64,000 bases of DNA from assembly GCA_000597885.1 (NCBI GenBank), contig CP004371.1, forward strand, positions 868,001 through 932,000. Reading direction: 5' to 3'. The notes under the pieces are model-generated. The model was not told the origin of the DNA and searched no databases. It saw only the letters and a list, made by a program, of their open reading frames with translations. This document shows, piece after piece, positions 26,040-31,380 of this stretch. This DNA is from Flammeovirgaceae bacterium 311 (GTDB lineage: Bacteria > Bacteroidota > Bacteroidia > Cytophagales > Cyclobacteriaceae). A program made the translations under genes and the position numbers. Position 1 is the stretch's first letter. Every line of letters starts with the position of its first letter.

Positions 26040-26450
26040 TTATAACTGCAGGCGCAACAGGCGCATCTGCAGGTTTCCATTTTGCAATATCATCTCTTCG
26101 GGCCTTAACAGTTCTACTTTGTAATTGTCGCTGGTGGCATCATCATACATAATCTTAAGCTGGTTATTCTGTATGCGCCAGGAGCCTGTGTTATGAATAA
26201 CCTTATCTTCAAATTCCACAAAACCTCCGCTGCTCAAAAACTGAAAAACCACTGCACCGTATTCATCTGTCAGGTCTTTATCAGTAGCCAGATCCCTGGC
26301 TTCGGCTACCACCCACTGGTACCTAAGCACATCGTAGGAAACATTATTTACCAGGTTACTTGCCCGAGCCTTGTTCTCATCCAGTAAAGAAACAAAACCA
26401 AAGAACAGGGATGCTAGCAGCAAAAGGTATAAAATGTTGTTTCTGGCCAT
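26040..26450 (-). CDS. Secreted or anchored small protein, lipocalin-like
   Basis: The 136-residue product has an N-terminal hydrophobic segment (residues 5-22) that may be a signal anchor. The rest alternates beta strands (YQWVVAEARDL, AVVFQFLSSGGFVEFEDKVIHNTGSWRIQNNQLKIMY). The W-x-(V) opening, the FQFLSSGGF segment and the GSWRI...LKI pattern resemble lipocalin-like domains common in Bacteroidetes, where they bind small hydrophobic molecules, but this is weak evidence. There is no lipobox. It stands alone between pckA and the DUF4382 gene. Confidence 0.6.
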   Translation of the reverse strand: MARNNILYLLLLASLFFGFVSLLDENKARASNLVNNVSYDVLRYQWVVAEARDLATDKDLTDEYGAVVFQFLSSGGFVEFEDKVIHNTGSWRIQNNQLKIMYDDATSDNYKVELLRPEEMILQNGNLQMRLLRLQL

Positions 26451-26598
26451 ACGCTAAATCAGTTTAAGATTTAATCTTTTAGTGAATAAATTCAGGATGA
26501 GAACCAGACGCTTTGCAGGGAAGACGATAAGATTAGTAAAAGGGTTGAAAGGCACCGGTAAAAATTTATACCAGTACCTCTCGCTTCACCATCAACCC

Positions 26599-27489
26599 TT
26601 AAAAGGTTAGAACTATTTCACTGTTCTGAAGACTGCTCACTTCAACATCATCCAAATTTGCCACCACGTTCAGGAAATTACCTTCTGCATCCTGTGCTGA
26701 GATGATAATATCGTATTTGCCTGGTGCCAGAAATGCCAGGTTAAAACTTCCGTCGGCGTGCACGCGGGTACTGCTTACTGCACCTGGAAACTGAATCTGC
26801 CCCTCTTCTGGTAGTTTTGCTTCTTCTTCTGTATAGGTTTCGTTGGCATAGGCGTAGGCAACATACTGCTCTCCCTCTCTGATATTTTGCAATGTTCCCT
26901 CAATACTTCCCGCCTGATCGTTCACCACCAACCTGATCACAGGCTTCAGGATCCATTTGCCAGACTCACCAGACTGTACAACTGATTTGCGTACATCGAA
27001 ATCTGCAGTGATGAAAACTGTTCCATTCATGGGTACTGCAAAAGATCCTTTCGCCTTGTAGCCACTCTGGGTACCACTGGGTACATAGAGAGGCGCTGTG
27101 GTGCCGTCGATAAAGGCTATGTAGGTTTTAAGATCAGTTTCTCTGTCTGCCTTACCGCCATTAGAGGCAGCATCTAGTACAAAGCGCAGCTCGCTGTACT
27201 CCCCTGCTTCTACAATAAAATCACCAAGCAGCTCTGTTTTTCCTTCGGTAAGCTCCAGCAGATTAATGGTTTTAGGTCCCTGAAAACTTTTAAATTCATG
27301 CCATTTACCATTGTGCCGGTATTCTACATGATCAACGGTAATGTACACACCGGCAATATTACCGGCATCTGTGGGTGCATCCGTAATACGAAGGCTTAAA
27401 GTACCTGTTCCGTTAACATCCTGGTCAGGATTACAGGCGGTAAAAGCAAGTGTTGATACACACATGCTGTAGAGGAATAGTCTTTTCAT
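26599..27489 (-). CDS. DUF4382 domain lipoprotein
   Basis: From ATG 27489 (or the adjacent 27492) the product is about 296 residues with a lipobox (AFTAC, Cys19). The DUF4382 domain follows (LSLRITDAPTDAGNIAGVYITVDHVE, then TINLLELTEGKTELLGDFIVEAGEYSELRFVLD). A C-terminal carboxypeptidase-regulatory-like beta domain follows at about residues 200-296 (GTLQNIREGEQYVAYAYAN to ADGSFNLAFLAPGKYDIIISA). The function of the family is unknown; its members are cell-surface or periplasmic lipoproteins. It lies directly downstream of the candidate dual-membrane anti-sigma gene, behind a promoter-like motif shared with the sigma operon. Confidence 0.82.
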   Translation of the reverse strand: MKRLFLYSMCVSTLAFTACNPDQDVNGTGTLSLRITDAPTDAGNIAGVYITVDHVEYRHNGKWHEFKSFQGPKTINLLELTEGKTELLGDFIVEAGEYSELRFVLDAASNGGKADRETDLKTYIAFIDGTTAPLYVPSGTQSGYKAKGSFAVPMNGTVFITADFDVRKSVVQSGESGKWILKPVIRLVVNDQAGSIEGTLQNIREGEQYVAYAYANETYTEEEAKLPEEGQIQFPGAVSSTRVHADGSFNLAFLAPGKYDIIISAQDAEGNFLNVVANLDDVEVSSLQNSEIVLTF

Positions 27490-27519
27490 CATACATTTCA
27501 GATTTAACACTGAGCATAA

Positions 27520-27548
27520 GACGAAAAACCCCTTCCATTTAGTTGGAA
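27520..27548 (-). promoter_or_regulatory. Candidate ECF promoter P2 before the DUF4382 gene
   Basis: Read on the minus strand, TTCCAAC (27548-27542) is followed after 18 bp by CGTCTT, whose CGTC occupies 27523-27520. The same two blocks with a 17-bp spacer precede the sigma operon. The -35-like block lies partly in the first arm of the terminator hairpin, so part of the match could be coincidental. The start codon is about 30 bp downstream. Confidence 0.45.
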
Positions 27549-27561: not shown

Positions 27562-29283
27562 CTATAATTCGTACTTAAATCCAATGACAAAATCCAAATA
27601 GGTGCTGTGGGTTTGCCGGAACTTTGCGGGGATTTCCGGGCTGCCTGCATAAATATTCATGATATCCAGCTGGCCCCGGATCCCGTAATTCAGCCACAAT
27701 CTCCTGCTAAGAGGAAAATTGTATTCATAACCCATAATTAAAGCTGCAGCAGTTTTTTTATACTCATCACTGATGCTGGATTCACCGGCCGGACCCTTCA
27801 TACTTGCCCCGTGTAGCCAGCCACCAGATACACCTGCCAGAAAACGGGTGTGCGGGCGCCGTAATAGGGCTCTGCCTCTTGGATTATAAGCTGCTAAAAC
27901 GCTAAGGTTGCTGTAGATTAACTTTGTATCAGTTGTTCCATACATTCCATCCTGATATTCATCGTAGCGCTGACCGGCTTCACTATAAAGCGTAAGGTCG
28001 GTTAGTAGTGCCAGTTTTGGGCTTAGCCCTTTTTCGGCCTGCAGGAAAAAGCTTTTCCGATAAGCTGGCAAAGAAGTAGTGAGGGAGCTTTTATCCATGG
28101 CACTGAGAGTCTTCTGGTTCATCAGCCAGGACATTCTGCCGGAAAGGCCTGCTCCTGCCCGCCAGCCACCGGCAAACTTTTGCTTATCAGCCACCGGCAC
28201 AACAGTTTCTTCTGTTTCTACAGCAGCAACATTGGCATCTACCAAACCTTCCTCTAAAATAAGCTCGGCGGGGATGCCAGTTAAGGTTTCATACAGCTGA
28301 TGCTGCTTTGTTGTGATCAGTGTACCTTCTTCTGAGCCAGATGCAGGTGCCACTGCATGGGCTAAACCATTTTTTGCAGAATTGTTGCCAGTATATGCAT
28401 TTTCGGCTGCTCTGCCTGAACCATTCTCTGCTGTTGTTGCAGTAGCAGCCCCTGTAGCTCCACCCCGATTAAGCTCATTACTGCCTGTGTTCCGGGCTGC
28501 TGCTCCTGATGGATACCTGCCAGCCATTGTTGCTGGTTTGCTTTTTGATTTTGGTACAGCATTGGCTGTAGCAGCATCAGCAGCATTGCTTTTGCCGGCA
28601 ATGTTCTCTGCCAGAATACCGTCTGTAACTGTTTTTGCAGAAGCCTCTGCTGCTTTACCACCAGCCTTGTTCTTTCCAGGAGCCGCAGCTGTTATGCCTC
28701 CATTTCTGTGGTCTGTGGGCGCCGGTGCTGTTATACGCCCTGCCCCCTGCTCTACAGCAGAAGCATCTGCTCCAGCACCACCGGCTTCATTCTCTGAATT
28801 AAAAGCATCGGCAGTTGCACCACCTGCTCCATTATCTATTCCAGAAGCCTCTAAACCTGCACTGTTTTGGCCAGTGCGCTCTCCTGTTGGCAACGTATTT
28901 TCTATTGATTTCCCAGAAGCATTTGTATAAGGTGCATCGGCGGGAGCACTTGCACTGGTCTGCTGCTGTTCTGCTAACTGAGGAACCTTGTCGGTATGCT
29001 GTAACTGTAGAAACAGCGGTATCATAACAACAACGGCAGCCATTGCTCCTGTTACTGCTTTCCCTGCTTTCTCCCACCAGAGCAGCTGATCATGTCGCTG
29101 CAGGCGGTTATCGATCGATGTCCACAGATTATCCAGTTCAAGGTCCTGTTCAATGCCAGACCATGAATTTTCCAGGTCCAGGCTTTCGGAAATATGCTGC
29201 CAGGCCGCCTCGGGAGGCTGTTGAGAGTTATCCTCAATTTTAGCTTTTAGCCAATCGTTTATATTGTCGTCAGGCTTTTCCAC
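27562..29283 (-). CDS. Candidate dual-membrane-spanning anti-sigma factor with outer-membrane barrel
   Basis: The 573-residue product has four parts. Residues 1-72 are a charged, Trp-containing cytosolic segment with repeated W-x2-I patterns (AAWQHISESL, NLWTSIDNRL). Residues about 74-94 form one membrane helix. Residues about 105-335 are a low-complexity Ala/Gly/Asn-rich linker. Residues about 365-573 alternate amphipathic beta strands and end FVIGFKYEL, like an outer-membrane barrel. This matches the dual-membrane anti-sigma (Dma) architecture I recall from Bacteroides thetaiotaomicron. It begins with GTG directly after the TAA of the ECF sigma gene, in the same frame. I infer that it binds that sigma factor and senses the outer membrane. 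Confidence 0.7.
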   Translation of the reverse strand: MEKPDDNINDWLKAKIEDNSQQPPEAAWQHISESLDLENSWSGIEQDLELDNLWTSIDNRLQRHDQLLWWEKAGKAVTGAMAAVVVMIPLFLQLQHTDKVPQLAEQQQTSASAPADAPYTNASGKSIENTLPTGERTGQNSAGLEASGIDNGAGGATADAFNSENEAGGAGADASAVEQGAGRITAPAPTDHRNGGITAAAPGKNKAGGKAAEASAKTVTDGILAENIAGKSNAADAATANAVPKSKSKPATMAGRYPSGAAARNTGSNELNRGGATGAATATTAENGSGRAAENAYTGNNSAKNGLAHAVAPASGSEEGTLITTKQHQLYETLTGIPAELILEEGLVDANVAAVETEETVVPVADKQKFAGGWRAGAGLSGRMSWLMNQKTLSAMDKSSLTTSLPAYRKSFFLQAEKGLSPKLALLTDLTLYSEAGQRYDEYQDGMYGTTDTKLIYSNLSVLAAYNPRGRALLRRPHTRFLAGVSGGWLHGASMKGPAGESSISDEYKKTAAALIMGYEYNFPLSRRLWLNYGIRGQLDIMNIYAGSPEIPAKFRQTHSTYLDFVIGFKYEL

Positions 29284-29832
29284 TTATCCTGCCATTCCGG
29301 TTAAATATCCCTGTAATATACTTTTCGCCCTGCTGTACTGCGATTTTGATGTTCCCTCGCTGATGGAGAGGCGGTCTGCTATTTCTTTATGTGTATATCC
29401 CTCTATGGCATAGAGGTTAAAAATAATACGGGCTCCTTCAGGCAACTTGCGCAAAAAGTAAAGAATTTCCTCAACGTTAATGGCTTTGTTAATACTGTCG
29501 TCGGATAAGCGCTCGCTGTGTGCTTCTTCCAGCTCTATAAAATTATTGAGCTTGCGACTCTGCCTGAAATAATCAATGGCAGTATTTGTAACTACGCGTC
29601 TTATCCAACCTTCCAGTGAATTACCTTTTTCAAAGGTACTGATCTTCAAAAACACCTTTACAAAGCTGTCCTGGAGGATGTCCTGGGCCATATCTTTGTC
29701 CCGGGCATAGCCCTGACAAATGGCATACATTTTACGGGAGTATTTCCGGTAAAGCTGTTCCTGGTACTTGCGGTCCTTTTCTAAACATCCTTTCAGAAGT
29801 TCTTCGTCGGAAAGTGTCTGAAGATACTCCAT
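29284..29832 (-). CDS. ECF-type RNA polymerase sigma factor
   Basis: This 182-residue sigma-70 family protein has region 2 at about residues 25-95 (DMAQDILQDSFVKVFLKI, then LEGWIRRVVTNTAIDYFRQ). Region 4 is at about 127-175 (LPEGARIIFNLYAIEGYTHKEIADRLSISEGTSKSQYSRAK). There is no region 3, as expected for group 4 (ECF) factors. It lies 3 bp after a lipoprotein gene and directly before the anti-sigma-like gene, so all three are co-transcribed. A candidate autoregulated promoter lies upstream of the operon. Confidence 0.93.
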   Translation of the reverse strand: MEYLQTLSDEELLKGCLEKDRKYQEQLYRKYSRKMYAICQGYARDKDMAQDILQDSFVKVFLKISTFEKGNSLEGWIRRVVTNTAIDYFRQSRKLNNFIELEEAHSERLSDDSINKAINVEEILYFLRKLPEGARIIFNLYAIEGYTHKEIADRLSISEGTSKSQYSRAKSILQGYLTGMAG

Positions 29833-29835
29833 AGG

Positions 29836-30567
29836 TTATTCAAAAAACAGGTTTGCCGATCGTTCAATGCGGTTTGCCAGCAGATTATAAATGTGGTCGT
29901 TTTGTTTCTTTGAAATCACCAGTGTAGGCACGCCATTTACCAGACTGGGTTTGGCACTTTGCAGCATCCTGGGGTTGATCAGGTCCATCCATTGCTGTGC
30001 ATCAAATTTAAGCCTGGCCTGGCGGGTACCATTATCCTTTACTACCACCTGCTGGTTGCCAGCAACTGTTTTCGCCGTATACCTGAACTCATCTACAGAT
30101 GTATACACAAACAGAAAGGGCACTTTCACACCATGCACATTTTTATAATCGCCCCATATTTCCACTCCGCCCACCACTGCGGCACGGTTTTTAATATCGC
30201 CACCCAAATTTGCCTCTCTACCTGCCGGAAGACCCATTTTTATTTCGATACGGCTGTAGATGCCCTGCGGCATTTCAAACTGCATCACCCTACCTGCTTT
30301 GTCTTTACTAAAGCTTACTTTTAGAGAATCGGGAAAATCTTTTGTGAAAAAGTAATTTTCGCCACTCTCCCGGTAACCATCAAAGACCACCTCTTTTAGC
30401 AGCAGACTGGCGCCGGTTACCTGCAGCGGGAGTTCATTCTGCTGATCGTTATTAACATCCAGCTCCATCAGCAGCTCGGCTGTTACAGGACTAGTAAGTT
30501 CATCCTTGCCACAGGATAGCAGGGAGATGAGAACGAACAAACACAAATAAAATCTTTTCTTAATCAT
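29836..30567 (-). CDS. Lipoprotein of unknown function, first gene of the sigma operon
   Basis: This 243-residue protein has a clear lipobox (SLLSC, Cys19). The rest is beta-rich, with a short SLLLKEVVFDGYRESGENYFF segment and later VEIWGDYKNVHGVKVPFLFVY. The order of elements (an ITGASLLLKEV-like strand, then KVSFSKDKAGRVMQFEMPQGIYSRIEIKMGL) loosely recalls DUF4382 and related lipoproteins, but I cannot assign a family. Being first in the ECF operon suggests a role in sensing or responding to the envelope state. It is separated from the sigma gene by 3 bp. Confidence 0.72.
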   Translation of the reverse strand: MIKKRFYLCLFVLISLLSCGKDELTSPVTAELLMELDVNNDQQNELPLQVTGASLLLKEVVFDGYRESGENYFFTKDFPDSLKVSFSKDKAGRVMQFEMPQGIYSRIEIKMGLPAGREANLGGDIKNRAAVVGGVEIWGDYKNVHGVKVPFLFVYTSVDEFRYTAKTVAGNQQVVVKDNGTRQARLKFDAQQWMDLINPRMLQSAKPSLVNGVPTLVISKKQNDHIYNLLANRIERSANLFFE

Positions 30568-30590: not shown

Positions 30591-30622
30591 CAAAGACGAA
30601 TATGAAGCTAATCTCGTTGGAA
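30591..30622 (-). promoter_or_regulatory. Candidate ECF promoter P1 before the sigma operon
   Basis: Read on the minus strand, TTCCAAC (30622-30616) is followed after 17 bp by CGTCTTTG (30598-30591). AAC and CGTC at this spacing are the typical -35 and -10 cores of ECF promoters. The start would be about 20 bp before the ATG at 30567. The same blocks occur as P2 at 27520-27548. Confidence 0.5.
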
Positions 30623-30663: not shown

Positions 30664-31380
30664 ATGAAAGTACCACAAGCACTCCCCGATAAAGCACTTG
30701 CATGGCAGCAGGCACTTCCTAAATTACAAAAACTTGCAAAACCACCCGTGCAACTAGGGCCCGACCAGCACCTGCTCTGGATTGATCTCTCTGCCGGGAA
30801 CACTTTTCTGGCTCAGCTGGATGTGGCTGATACGGCTGCTACGGATGCATACATTCAGCAGGAGCTAAAGCAAAAAAATGCGGCTGGAGCCATTGGTGGT
30901 TACCTGGAAAACAGGCTGCTTTACCTGCGCAGCAATGTTTTTGCAGCAGATGAACATCGTACACTGCATATTGGTATGGATATCTGGCTACCGGCGGGAG
31001 TGCCCCTTTTTGCAGTACTGCCCGGCAGTGTGCACAGTTATGCTGATAATGACAACTTTGGTGATTATGGCCCTACCATAATCCTGGAGCACCAGTTGGA
31101 GGATATACAGTTTTACACCCTCTACGGCCACCTCAGCCGCACTTCTCTAGCTTCTTTATACGAGGGTAAAACCTTTGCTGCCGGGGAGCCTATTGCTACG
31201 CTTGGTACAGAAGCAGAAAACGGAAACTGGCCGCCACACCTGCATTTTCAGATTATACTGGATATGCAGGGGCGCAGGGGCGATTTCCCTGGAGTGGCAG
31301 CACCTTCTCAAAAGGAGTACTACCAGCAGCTCTGCCCCAACCCAAATGATTTGTTAAAATTTCGTACGGAAGATCATTAA
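30664..31380 (+). CDS. M23 family peptidase, cytosolic or non-classically exported
   Basis: This 238-residue protein carries a LytM/M23 fold: HIGMD (H-x3-D zinc ligands) and HLHFQ (H-x-H), joined by the strand-rich GVPLFAVLPGSVHSYADNDNFGDYGPTIILEHQ segment. Such domains cut peptidoglycan peptide bridges. It has no signal peptide or membrane helix, which is unusual for a wall hydrolase. It may be a metalloprotein with another role, or part of the family often joined to aminotransferases in Bacteroidetes. Its stop overlaps the stop of the nucleoside transporter on the other strand (TTAA). Confidence 0.8.
   Translation: MKVPQALPDKALAWQQALPKLQKLAKPPVQLGPDQHLLWIDLSAGNTFLAQLDVADTAATDAYIQQELKQKNAAGAIGGYLENRLLYLRSNVFAADEHRTLHIGMDIWLPAGVPLFAVLPGSVHSYADNDNFGDYGPTIILEHQLEDIQFYTLYGHLSRTSLASLYEGKTFAAGEPIATLGTEAENGNWPPHLHFQIILDMQGRRGDFPGVAAPSQKEYYQQLCPNPNDLLKFRTEDH

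Follow-up and report, generated by a model that had tools for sequence, protein, structure and literature searches.

The ECF sigma factor and the 573-residue protein encoded directly behind it in the window (the whole stretch of 64,000 nucleotides analyzed, taken from the single 6.67-Mb contig of the Flammeovirgaceae bacterium 311 genome) probably form a regulatory pair, in which the larger protein is an envelope-spanning anti-sigma factor controlling its sigma factor. By architecture, gene pairing and sigma phylogeny, the 573-residue protein appears to belong with the Dma and Reo anti-sigma factors, its binding to the sigma factor being putative. The genes are read from the minus strand in the order lipoprotein, sigma factor, 573-residue protein, DUF4382 lipoprotein and lipocalin-like protein (Table 1), and both open reading frames of the pair lie at the coordinates given for them by an earlier, sequence-only reading of this DNA. 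The TAA stop codon of the sigma gene abuts the GTG start codon of its partner in the same frame. The DUF4382 frame starts with GTG, with an ATG six codons further in, and a protein similar to the lipocalin-like protein is encoded in the same place in three relatives.

Table 1. Features of the sigma/Dma-like locus, in window positions
Feature	Positions	Strand	Basis
ECF sigma factor, 182 aa, Das/EcfO-like clade	29284..29832	-	Pfam r2/r4 and sigma tree
Dma-like protein (573 aa, whole ORF)	27562..29283	-	ORF list
Dma-like cytosolic N-terminus, residues 1-73, three W-x2-I-x3-L motifs; proposed sigma-binding part	29065..29283	-	Motifs, AlphaFold2 helices
Dma-like inner-membrane helix, residues 74-94	29002..29064	-	Hydropathy; within long AlphaFold2 helix 50-95
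Dma-like periplasmic tether, residues 95-373, disordered, Ala/Gly/Asn-rich	28165..29001	-	pLDDT, length, composition
Dma-like C-terminal predicted 8-stranded outer-membrane barrel, residues 374-573 and stop	27562..28164	-	AlphaFold2, Foldseek PDB
Lipoprotein, 243 aa, directly upstream of sigma gene	29836..30567	-	Homologues in same position
Predicted ECF promoter of lipoprotein-sigma-Dma operon, TTCCAAC-N17-CGTCT	30594..30622	-	Same site in three further species
Promoter-like site TTCCAAC-N18-CGTCT before DUF4382 gene; overlaps terminator-like hairpin	27519..27548	-	Motif conservation
DUF4382 lipoprotein, proposed target gene	26599..27510	-	Pfam DUF4382 2e-33
Promoter-like site TTTCAAC-N17-CGTCT before lipocalin-like gene	26522..26550	-	Motif conservation
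Small lipocalin-like envelope protein, proposed target gene	26040..26450	-	Pfam Lipocalin_4 E 0.0013, below its cut-off

The sigma protein matches Pfam Sigma70_r2 (5e-15) and Sigma70_r4_2 (1.1e-14). For its relatives, the best 80 among 545 confirmed loci were used, which makes them a sample drawn from the nearest; of these, the closest named ones belong to Cesiribacter andamanensis (83%), Cesiribacteraceae bacterium YIM B00369 (72%) and Nafulsella turpanensis (70%); the window sigma clusters with these three at 100/99 in the sigma tree. The clade rows of this midpoint-rooted tree number 85 (76 loci, the window, four Bacteroides-type rows and four more from the window's genome, with the L001, L005 and L021 sigmas left out), and they split at 100/99 from 22 other ECF sigma factors of the window's genome, among which there was a long-branch warning. 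The same clade (100/99) unites the window sigma with Das2 and with NigD-flanked Das1/EcfO-like sigmas, both recognized by their gene neighbors in Bacteroides-type genomes. DUF4943 is present in 3 of 395 genomes, two of which, from one genus, show the published dma2 gene order: a nitronate monooxygenase-like gene (identified by eye), a second small gene, DUF4943, the barrel protein and the sigma factor. The third DUF4943 genome held no sigma/barrel pair of the dma2 type. A further sigma/barrel pair lies beside a divergent NigD gene in the same two genomes and fits Dma1 or EcfO-Reo, an equation of our own.

When the 43 sigma rows of these two Bacteroides-type genomes were scored against the window sigma, five reached 92-120 bits and the other 38 scored 55 or less. 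Four of the five are, in each genome, the Das2 sigma and the NigD-flanked Das1/EcfO-like sigma; the fifth is a further one. The best matches in the dma2-neighborhood genomes are these Das2 and Das1-like sigmas, and the link to Dma proposed in the sequence-only reading holds for architecture, gene pairing and sigma phylogeny. Its description of a different lineage is borne out at about the level of order (Cesiribacteraceae by the named relatives, the Bacteroides-type genomes belonging to the same class); the phylum is that of the known Dma proteins. Within the sigma factor, C16 is kept in all 85 clade members and C39 in 83 of them, compared with 2 and 6, respectively, of the 22 other ECF sigmas of the genome. 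A redox role for these cysteines was considered and set aside, since we infer them to lie too far apart on helices for a disulfide. One Bacteroides-type genome encodes a clade-like sigma of 228 aa (L175:3422-4108) that ends in a hydrophobic helix of its own, which recalls the sigma-fused Dma3 of PMC13088901.

Neither Pfam (searched up to E 1) nor NCBIfam (up to 0.01) has a family that the 573-residue protein matches, including the curated domains of classical anti-sigma factors such as the zinc-finger and FecR types; two of its relatives weakly match an NCBIfam anti-sigma model, far below the cut-off of that model. A single hydrophobic helix, peaking at residues 76-94 with a Kyte-Doolittle mean of 2.12, agrees with the cytosolic N-terminus and one inner-membrane helix (about 74-94) proposed earlier. 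The AlphaFold2 model (26-row alignment, mean pLDDT 63.6, pTM 0.47) likewise places N-terminal helices at 7-18, 25-34, 37-46 and 50-95, and most of residues 102-366 fall below a pLDDT of 50. The linker is Ala/Gly/Asn-rich as had been described, but longer than the roughly 230 residues assigned to it: from helix to barrel it spans 282 residues, compared with 122-186 (median 144) in the 19 relatives measurable by a barrel profile, and its Ala, Gly and Asn make up 41%, compared with at most 30% in those relatives. The tether shows a weak 14-residue periodicity (z 5.7, 500 shuffles), and its DNA holds one short tandem-repeat array only. Since the tether of the paralogue L177 from the same genome measures about 339 residues by hand-set bounds, the length seen in the window is not unique.

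Motifs of the W-x2-I-x3-L type, picked after viewing the alignment, are found in 70 of the 73 relatives with a recognized helix. Three copies, 13 residues apart, are present in the window protein and its three nearest relatives, two in many Bacteroidales relatives and one in each of the four Bacteroides-type proteins. Motifs one and two, together with the barrel, are conserved above the level of the tether. In the N-termini of L056, L058 and L060 the module occurs three or four times at spacings of 32-35 and 13, as if the proposed sigma-binding part had been multiplied.

A barrel within residues 365-573, which the sequence-only reading had set as its own test, is predicted by AlphaFold2, and Foldseek agrees; the chain ends in FKYEL, also as reported there. 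The predicted strands lie between 374 and 572 and were read as eight main ones, with pLDDT values of 89-98 in ten-residue blocks from 371 on, except 471-480 at 64. Foldseek searches of the PDB returned OprG, OmpW, NspA, OmpX, Ail and OmpA at probability 1.00 (TM 0.36-0.64 by target length), and larger barrels such as OmpT and FadL also match.

Judged by their sequences, window-type and Bacteroides-type proteins are only distantly alike. At E 1e-4, BLAST found no link between their C-terminal parts. Comparison of the N-terminus and barrel with Dma-type proteins, as proposed earlier, gave a divided result. For the barrel it was positive by profile comparison (probability 96, E 3.7e-9, covering the barrel only) and negative by the iterated barrel-only profile of the window clade, which reached none of the four Bacteroides-type proteins; the iterated N-terminus-only profile reached one of the four, at E 0.01. 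A full-length iterated profile does reach the Bacteroides-type proteins (E 7e-12 to 3e-22), a result to which the low-complexity tether may contribute. A model of the sigma factor with the N-terminus, built on an alignment of 40 sigma rows and four in-frame read-through pairs, gave a pTM of 0.51; two other MAFFT alignments were discarded, as they placed the anti-sigma rows over the sigma part. Against solved ECF sigma/anti-sigma chains, the model scored TM values of about 0.5 or below with an rmsd of about 14-18 Å, while sigma region 2 alone superposed well on the solved complexes. Residues 48-77 had a pLDDT of 82-90 when modeled with the sigma factor and about 51-73 alone, a weak indication given that the two alignments differ.

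The lipoprotein gene co-transcribed with the sigma and Dma-like genes is a new feature beside the known Dma and Reo systems. When the gene directly upstream was examined, a homologue of this lipoprotein was found before the sigma gene in 19 of 76 loci, and the lipobox cysteine is invariant in 15 aligned members, none of which matches Pfam. A likeness to the DUF4382 protein was too weak to be used (probability 87, across 117 N-terminal residues that include the signal peptide). The lipoprotein profile matches 18 of 395 sampled genomes, the window's genome included. In the short flanks examined in the 17 others, a clade-type sigma was absent from 15 and a weak one was present in two; thus, with no clade sigma clearly beside it in those genomes, the lipoprotein family is wider than the system.

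The pattern TTYCAAC-N17/18-CGTCT is conserved in front of the operon and of the lipocalin-like gene in four species each and in front of the DUF4382 gene in three, the fourth having no DUF4382 gene at the locus. We predict from these sequences that it is an ECF-like promoter of the operon and of two neighboring envelope-protein genes. A stricter motif, TTCCAAC-N14-16-TTCGTCT, was drawn from the operon promoters of three species; it also occurs before the window DUF4382 gene, before the Nafulsella lipocalin-like gene and upstream of the L052 and L062 sigmas. In the 1.5 kb before the sigma gene, it was found with at most one mismatch in 9 of 75 relatives, compared with none on the opposite strand and one for the backward motif, and with at most two mismatches in 22 of 75, compared with 0 and 5, two of the 75 (L049 and L050) having helped to define it. 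The window's genome holds two sites of the strict pattern and one of the backward control. Across four operon-bearing genomes, the wider pattern has 18 sites and its backward control 26, so support for the promoter comes from the placement of sites and not from their number. Eleven of the 18 lie at the locus, the pattern having been drawn from such sites and the control tallied by number alone. G002, a fifth genome searched, gave two matches to the wider pattern, and no motif site at a window-type operon was found there.

Both Das2 upstream regions hold GCGTCTAA, which by eye resembles the -10 part of the motif; the TTYCAAC/CGTCT pattern itself had no match there. NigD was not found among the six neighboring proteins scanned with Pfam. 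TTYCAAC-N17-CGTCT sites also precede genes of large proteins, secreted-looking by eye, in the window's genome, G002 and Nafulsella (L184, L187 and L190). In three genomes of the genus, a TTCCAAC-N18-CGTCT-like stretch follows a set of related genes (370-374 aa) at a distance of 25 bases (L185, L198 and L199). A divergent gene with an M23 peptidase domain (window 30664-31380) adjoins the operon, and three relatives have a gene of similar length in its place, the domain being known for the window copy alone. The locus, which has a partner lipoprotein and for which a promoter and three transcription units are predicted, is a compact, testable model, in which what the barrel senses becomes a question for a reporter assay.

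An open reading frame was found downstream of the sigma gene in 76 of the best 80 of 545 sigma loci, those without one being L071, L091, L103 and L125. When the segments beyond the membrane helix were compared by BLAST at E 1e-4, 40 of these 76 proteins linked to the window protein and 3 to Bacteroides-type proteins; a separate class takes in 23, a small group 4, and the remaining 6 are unlinked. It is by these links that 43 relatives are labeled as barrel proteins, structure having been predicted for the window protein alone. An N-terminal profile built from the separate class matched 25 of 395 Bacteroidota genomes, and the open reading frame was recovered in 23 of them. All 23 directly follow a clade sigma, each with one N-terminal membrane helix, and the sigma/Dma-like pairing is therefore not a matter of chance. 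Assigned by their N-terminus, the 23 comprise one protein with the sorting domain, 19 complete frames of 437-534 residues, two short ones (246 and 254) and one truncated where its stretch ends.

The most likely role of the pair is to report the state of the outer membrane to a small, autoregulated set of envelope genes. The N-terminal helices would keep the sigma factor at the inner membrane, with the barrel in the outer membrane and the disordered tether joining the two across the periplasm. A change in the outer membrane would be sensed by the barrel, probably together with the co-transcribed lipoprotein. The grip on the sigma factor would then end, perhaps once proteases have cut first the tether and afterwards the membrane helix, and the released sigma would transcribe both its own operon and the two neighboring genes (DUF4382 and lipocalin-like) from the TTYCAAC/CGTCT promoters. 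The chain might instead be cut after export, leaving the barrel as an ordinary small outer-membrane protein unlinked from the inner-membrane anti-sigma part. Such a cut would suit a tether that is disordered and variable in length and sequence, and hence accessible to proteases, but we consider it unlikely: all 19 measured relatives keep at least 122 residues from helix to barrel on one chain, and published accounts regard Dma and Reo as spanning the envelope. It is still less probable that the 573-residue protein is an activator or target of the sigma factor with which it shares an operon. Its anti-sigma binding is putative, and a search of solved structures with the Dma-type profile returned nothing below E 0.76; however, the N-terminus stands directly behind a clade sigma in every recovered locus, and deletion of dma2 in Bacteroides thetaiotaomicron raises das2 and the neighboring genes of its own operon, according to PMC13088901.

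A further possibility concerns the signal, and we hold it to be a serious one, if short of an even chance: the barrel would report failed BAM assembly and not an outside ligand, so that a chain whose insertion fails would be degraded, releasing the sigma factor. This is compatible with the envelope-spanning anti-sigma factor that we prefer and would specify what it responds to. By Foldseek, the barrel has the fold of a BAM client, barrels of this kind reaching the outer membrane via the BAM route. Consistent with such a signal, conserved barrel residues showed no significant preference for the outer face (p 0.14, with rows L033 and L091 excluded), although loops L1 and L4 on the outer side rank among the more conserved stretches of the barrel, which would fit a ligand or a partner lipoprotein. 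Two antibacterial toxins induce the Phocaeicola vulgatus sigma/Reo pair, with envelope stress proposed as the signal (PMC13114119 and PMC9308784).

The envelope-spanning anti-sigma factor proposed here shares with Dma1/Dma2-Das1/Das2 of B. thetaiotaomicron an ECF sigma gene directly upstream, a sigma in one clade with Das2, and a layout of N-terminal part, membrane helix, disordered tether and C-terminal barrel. It differs in the upstream lipoprotein of the operon, in having three W motifs and not one, in its longer tether, and in its neighbors, which are DUF4382 and lipocalin-like genes instead of DUF4943 or NigD. RseA, the anti-sigma factor of sigma E in Escherichia coli, is likewise single-pass and reports the state of the outer membrane; its chain stops in the periplasm and its function depends on DegS and RseB, whereas the window anti-sigma chain would itself include an outer-membrane barrel. 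In B. thetaiotaomicron, loss of dma2 raises the output of outer-membrane vesicles, an effect that needs das2, as stated in PMC13088901. EcfO-Reo of Bacteroides fragilis and P. vulgatus is also an envelope-spanning anti-sigma factor beside an ECF sigma, and PMC13114119 describes P. vulgatus Reo as spanning all compartments and its sigma as driving NigD proteins. Known EcfO-Reo targets thus include NigD, whereas the predicted targets in the window are the DUF4382 lipoprotein, the lipocalin-like protein and the upstream lipoprotein.

The separate class of 23 sigma-adjacent proteins (e.g., L087:2227-3222) has a window-like N-terminus and membrane helix. All 14 of the 23 that were scanned carry a type B sorting domain for type IX secretion (CHU_C in Pfam, TIGR04131 in NCBIfam), which replaces the barrel and is mostly preceded by a PKD domain (12 of 14). 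Their sigmas cluster at 99/98 in 22 of 23 rows of the sigma tree. A limited literature search found no description of an anti-sigma factor with a type IX sorting domain. PorA of Porphyromonas gingivalis also carries a type IX secretion signal and acts on an ECF sigma pathway (PMC7712824), but it is a surface protein of the PorXY-SigP pathway and not an inner-membrane protein with its gene next to that of the sigma. If the second class works as it looks, the state of type IX secretion could be read from a sigma factor. Both classes might belong to one phylum-wide modular family, with a shared sigma-binding N-terminus, helix and tether and an exchangeable end piece (a barrel, or PKD and a type IX sorting domain), which would read BAM and type IX export via tethered clients, in the window with a partner lipoprotein. 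We put this forward tentatively, as a reading that is rather doubtful at present; were it true, the cell would read the state of both outer-membrane export routes through one tethered client each.

Envelope-spanning anti-sigma factors are apparently not peculiar to gut Bacteroides, since one genome of another order has five clade sigmas and barrel-type partners lie beside such sigmas in several other families of the phylum. The five sigmas, the co-transcribed lipoprotein, the predicted ECF-like promoter and the tandem W motifs are new here. In the window's genome, 5 of 30 sigma70 region-2 matches fall in the clade, at 135 bits or more compared with 74 or less for the rest. Besides the window, the sigma gene of three paralogous loci (L177, L178 and L179) has behind it the gene of a long protein that links to the barrel group. 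A lipoprotein gene was recognized by eye just upstream in three of the four paralogous loci (these and L180); in Pfam, two of these lipoproteins are Ig-like and one is weakly carboxypeptidase-regulatory-like. At L180:3581-5477, the dma-like gene of the same genome reads in two overlapping frames (268 and 401 aa), which may equally reflect a sequencing slip, a decayed gene or a recoding site.
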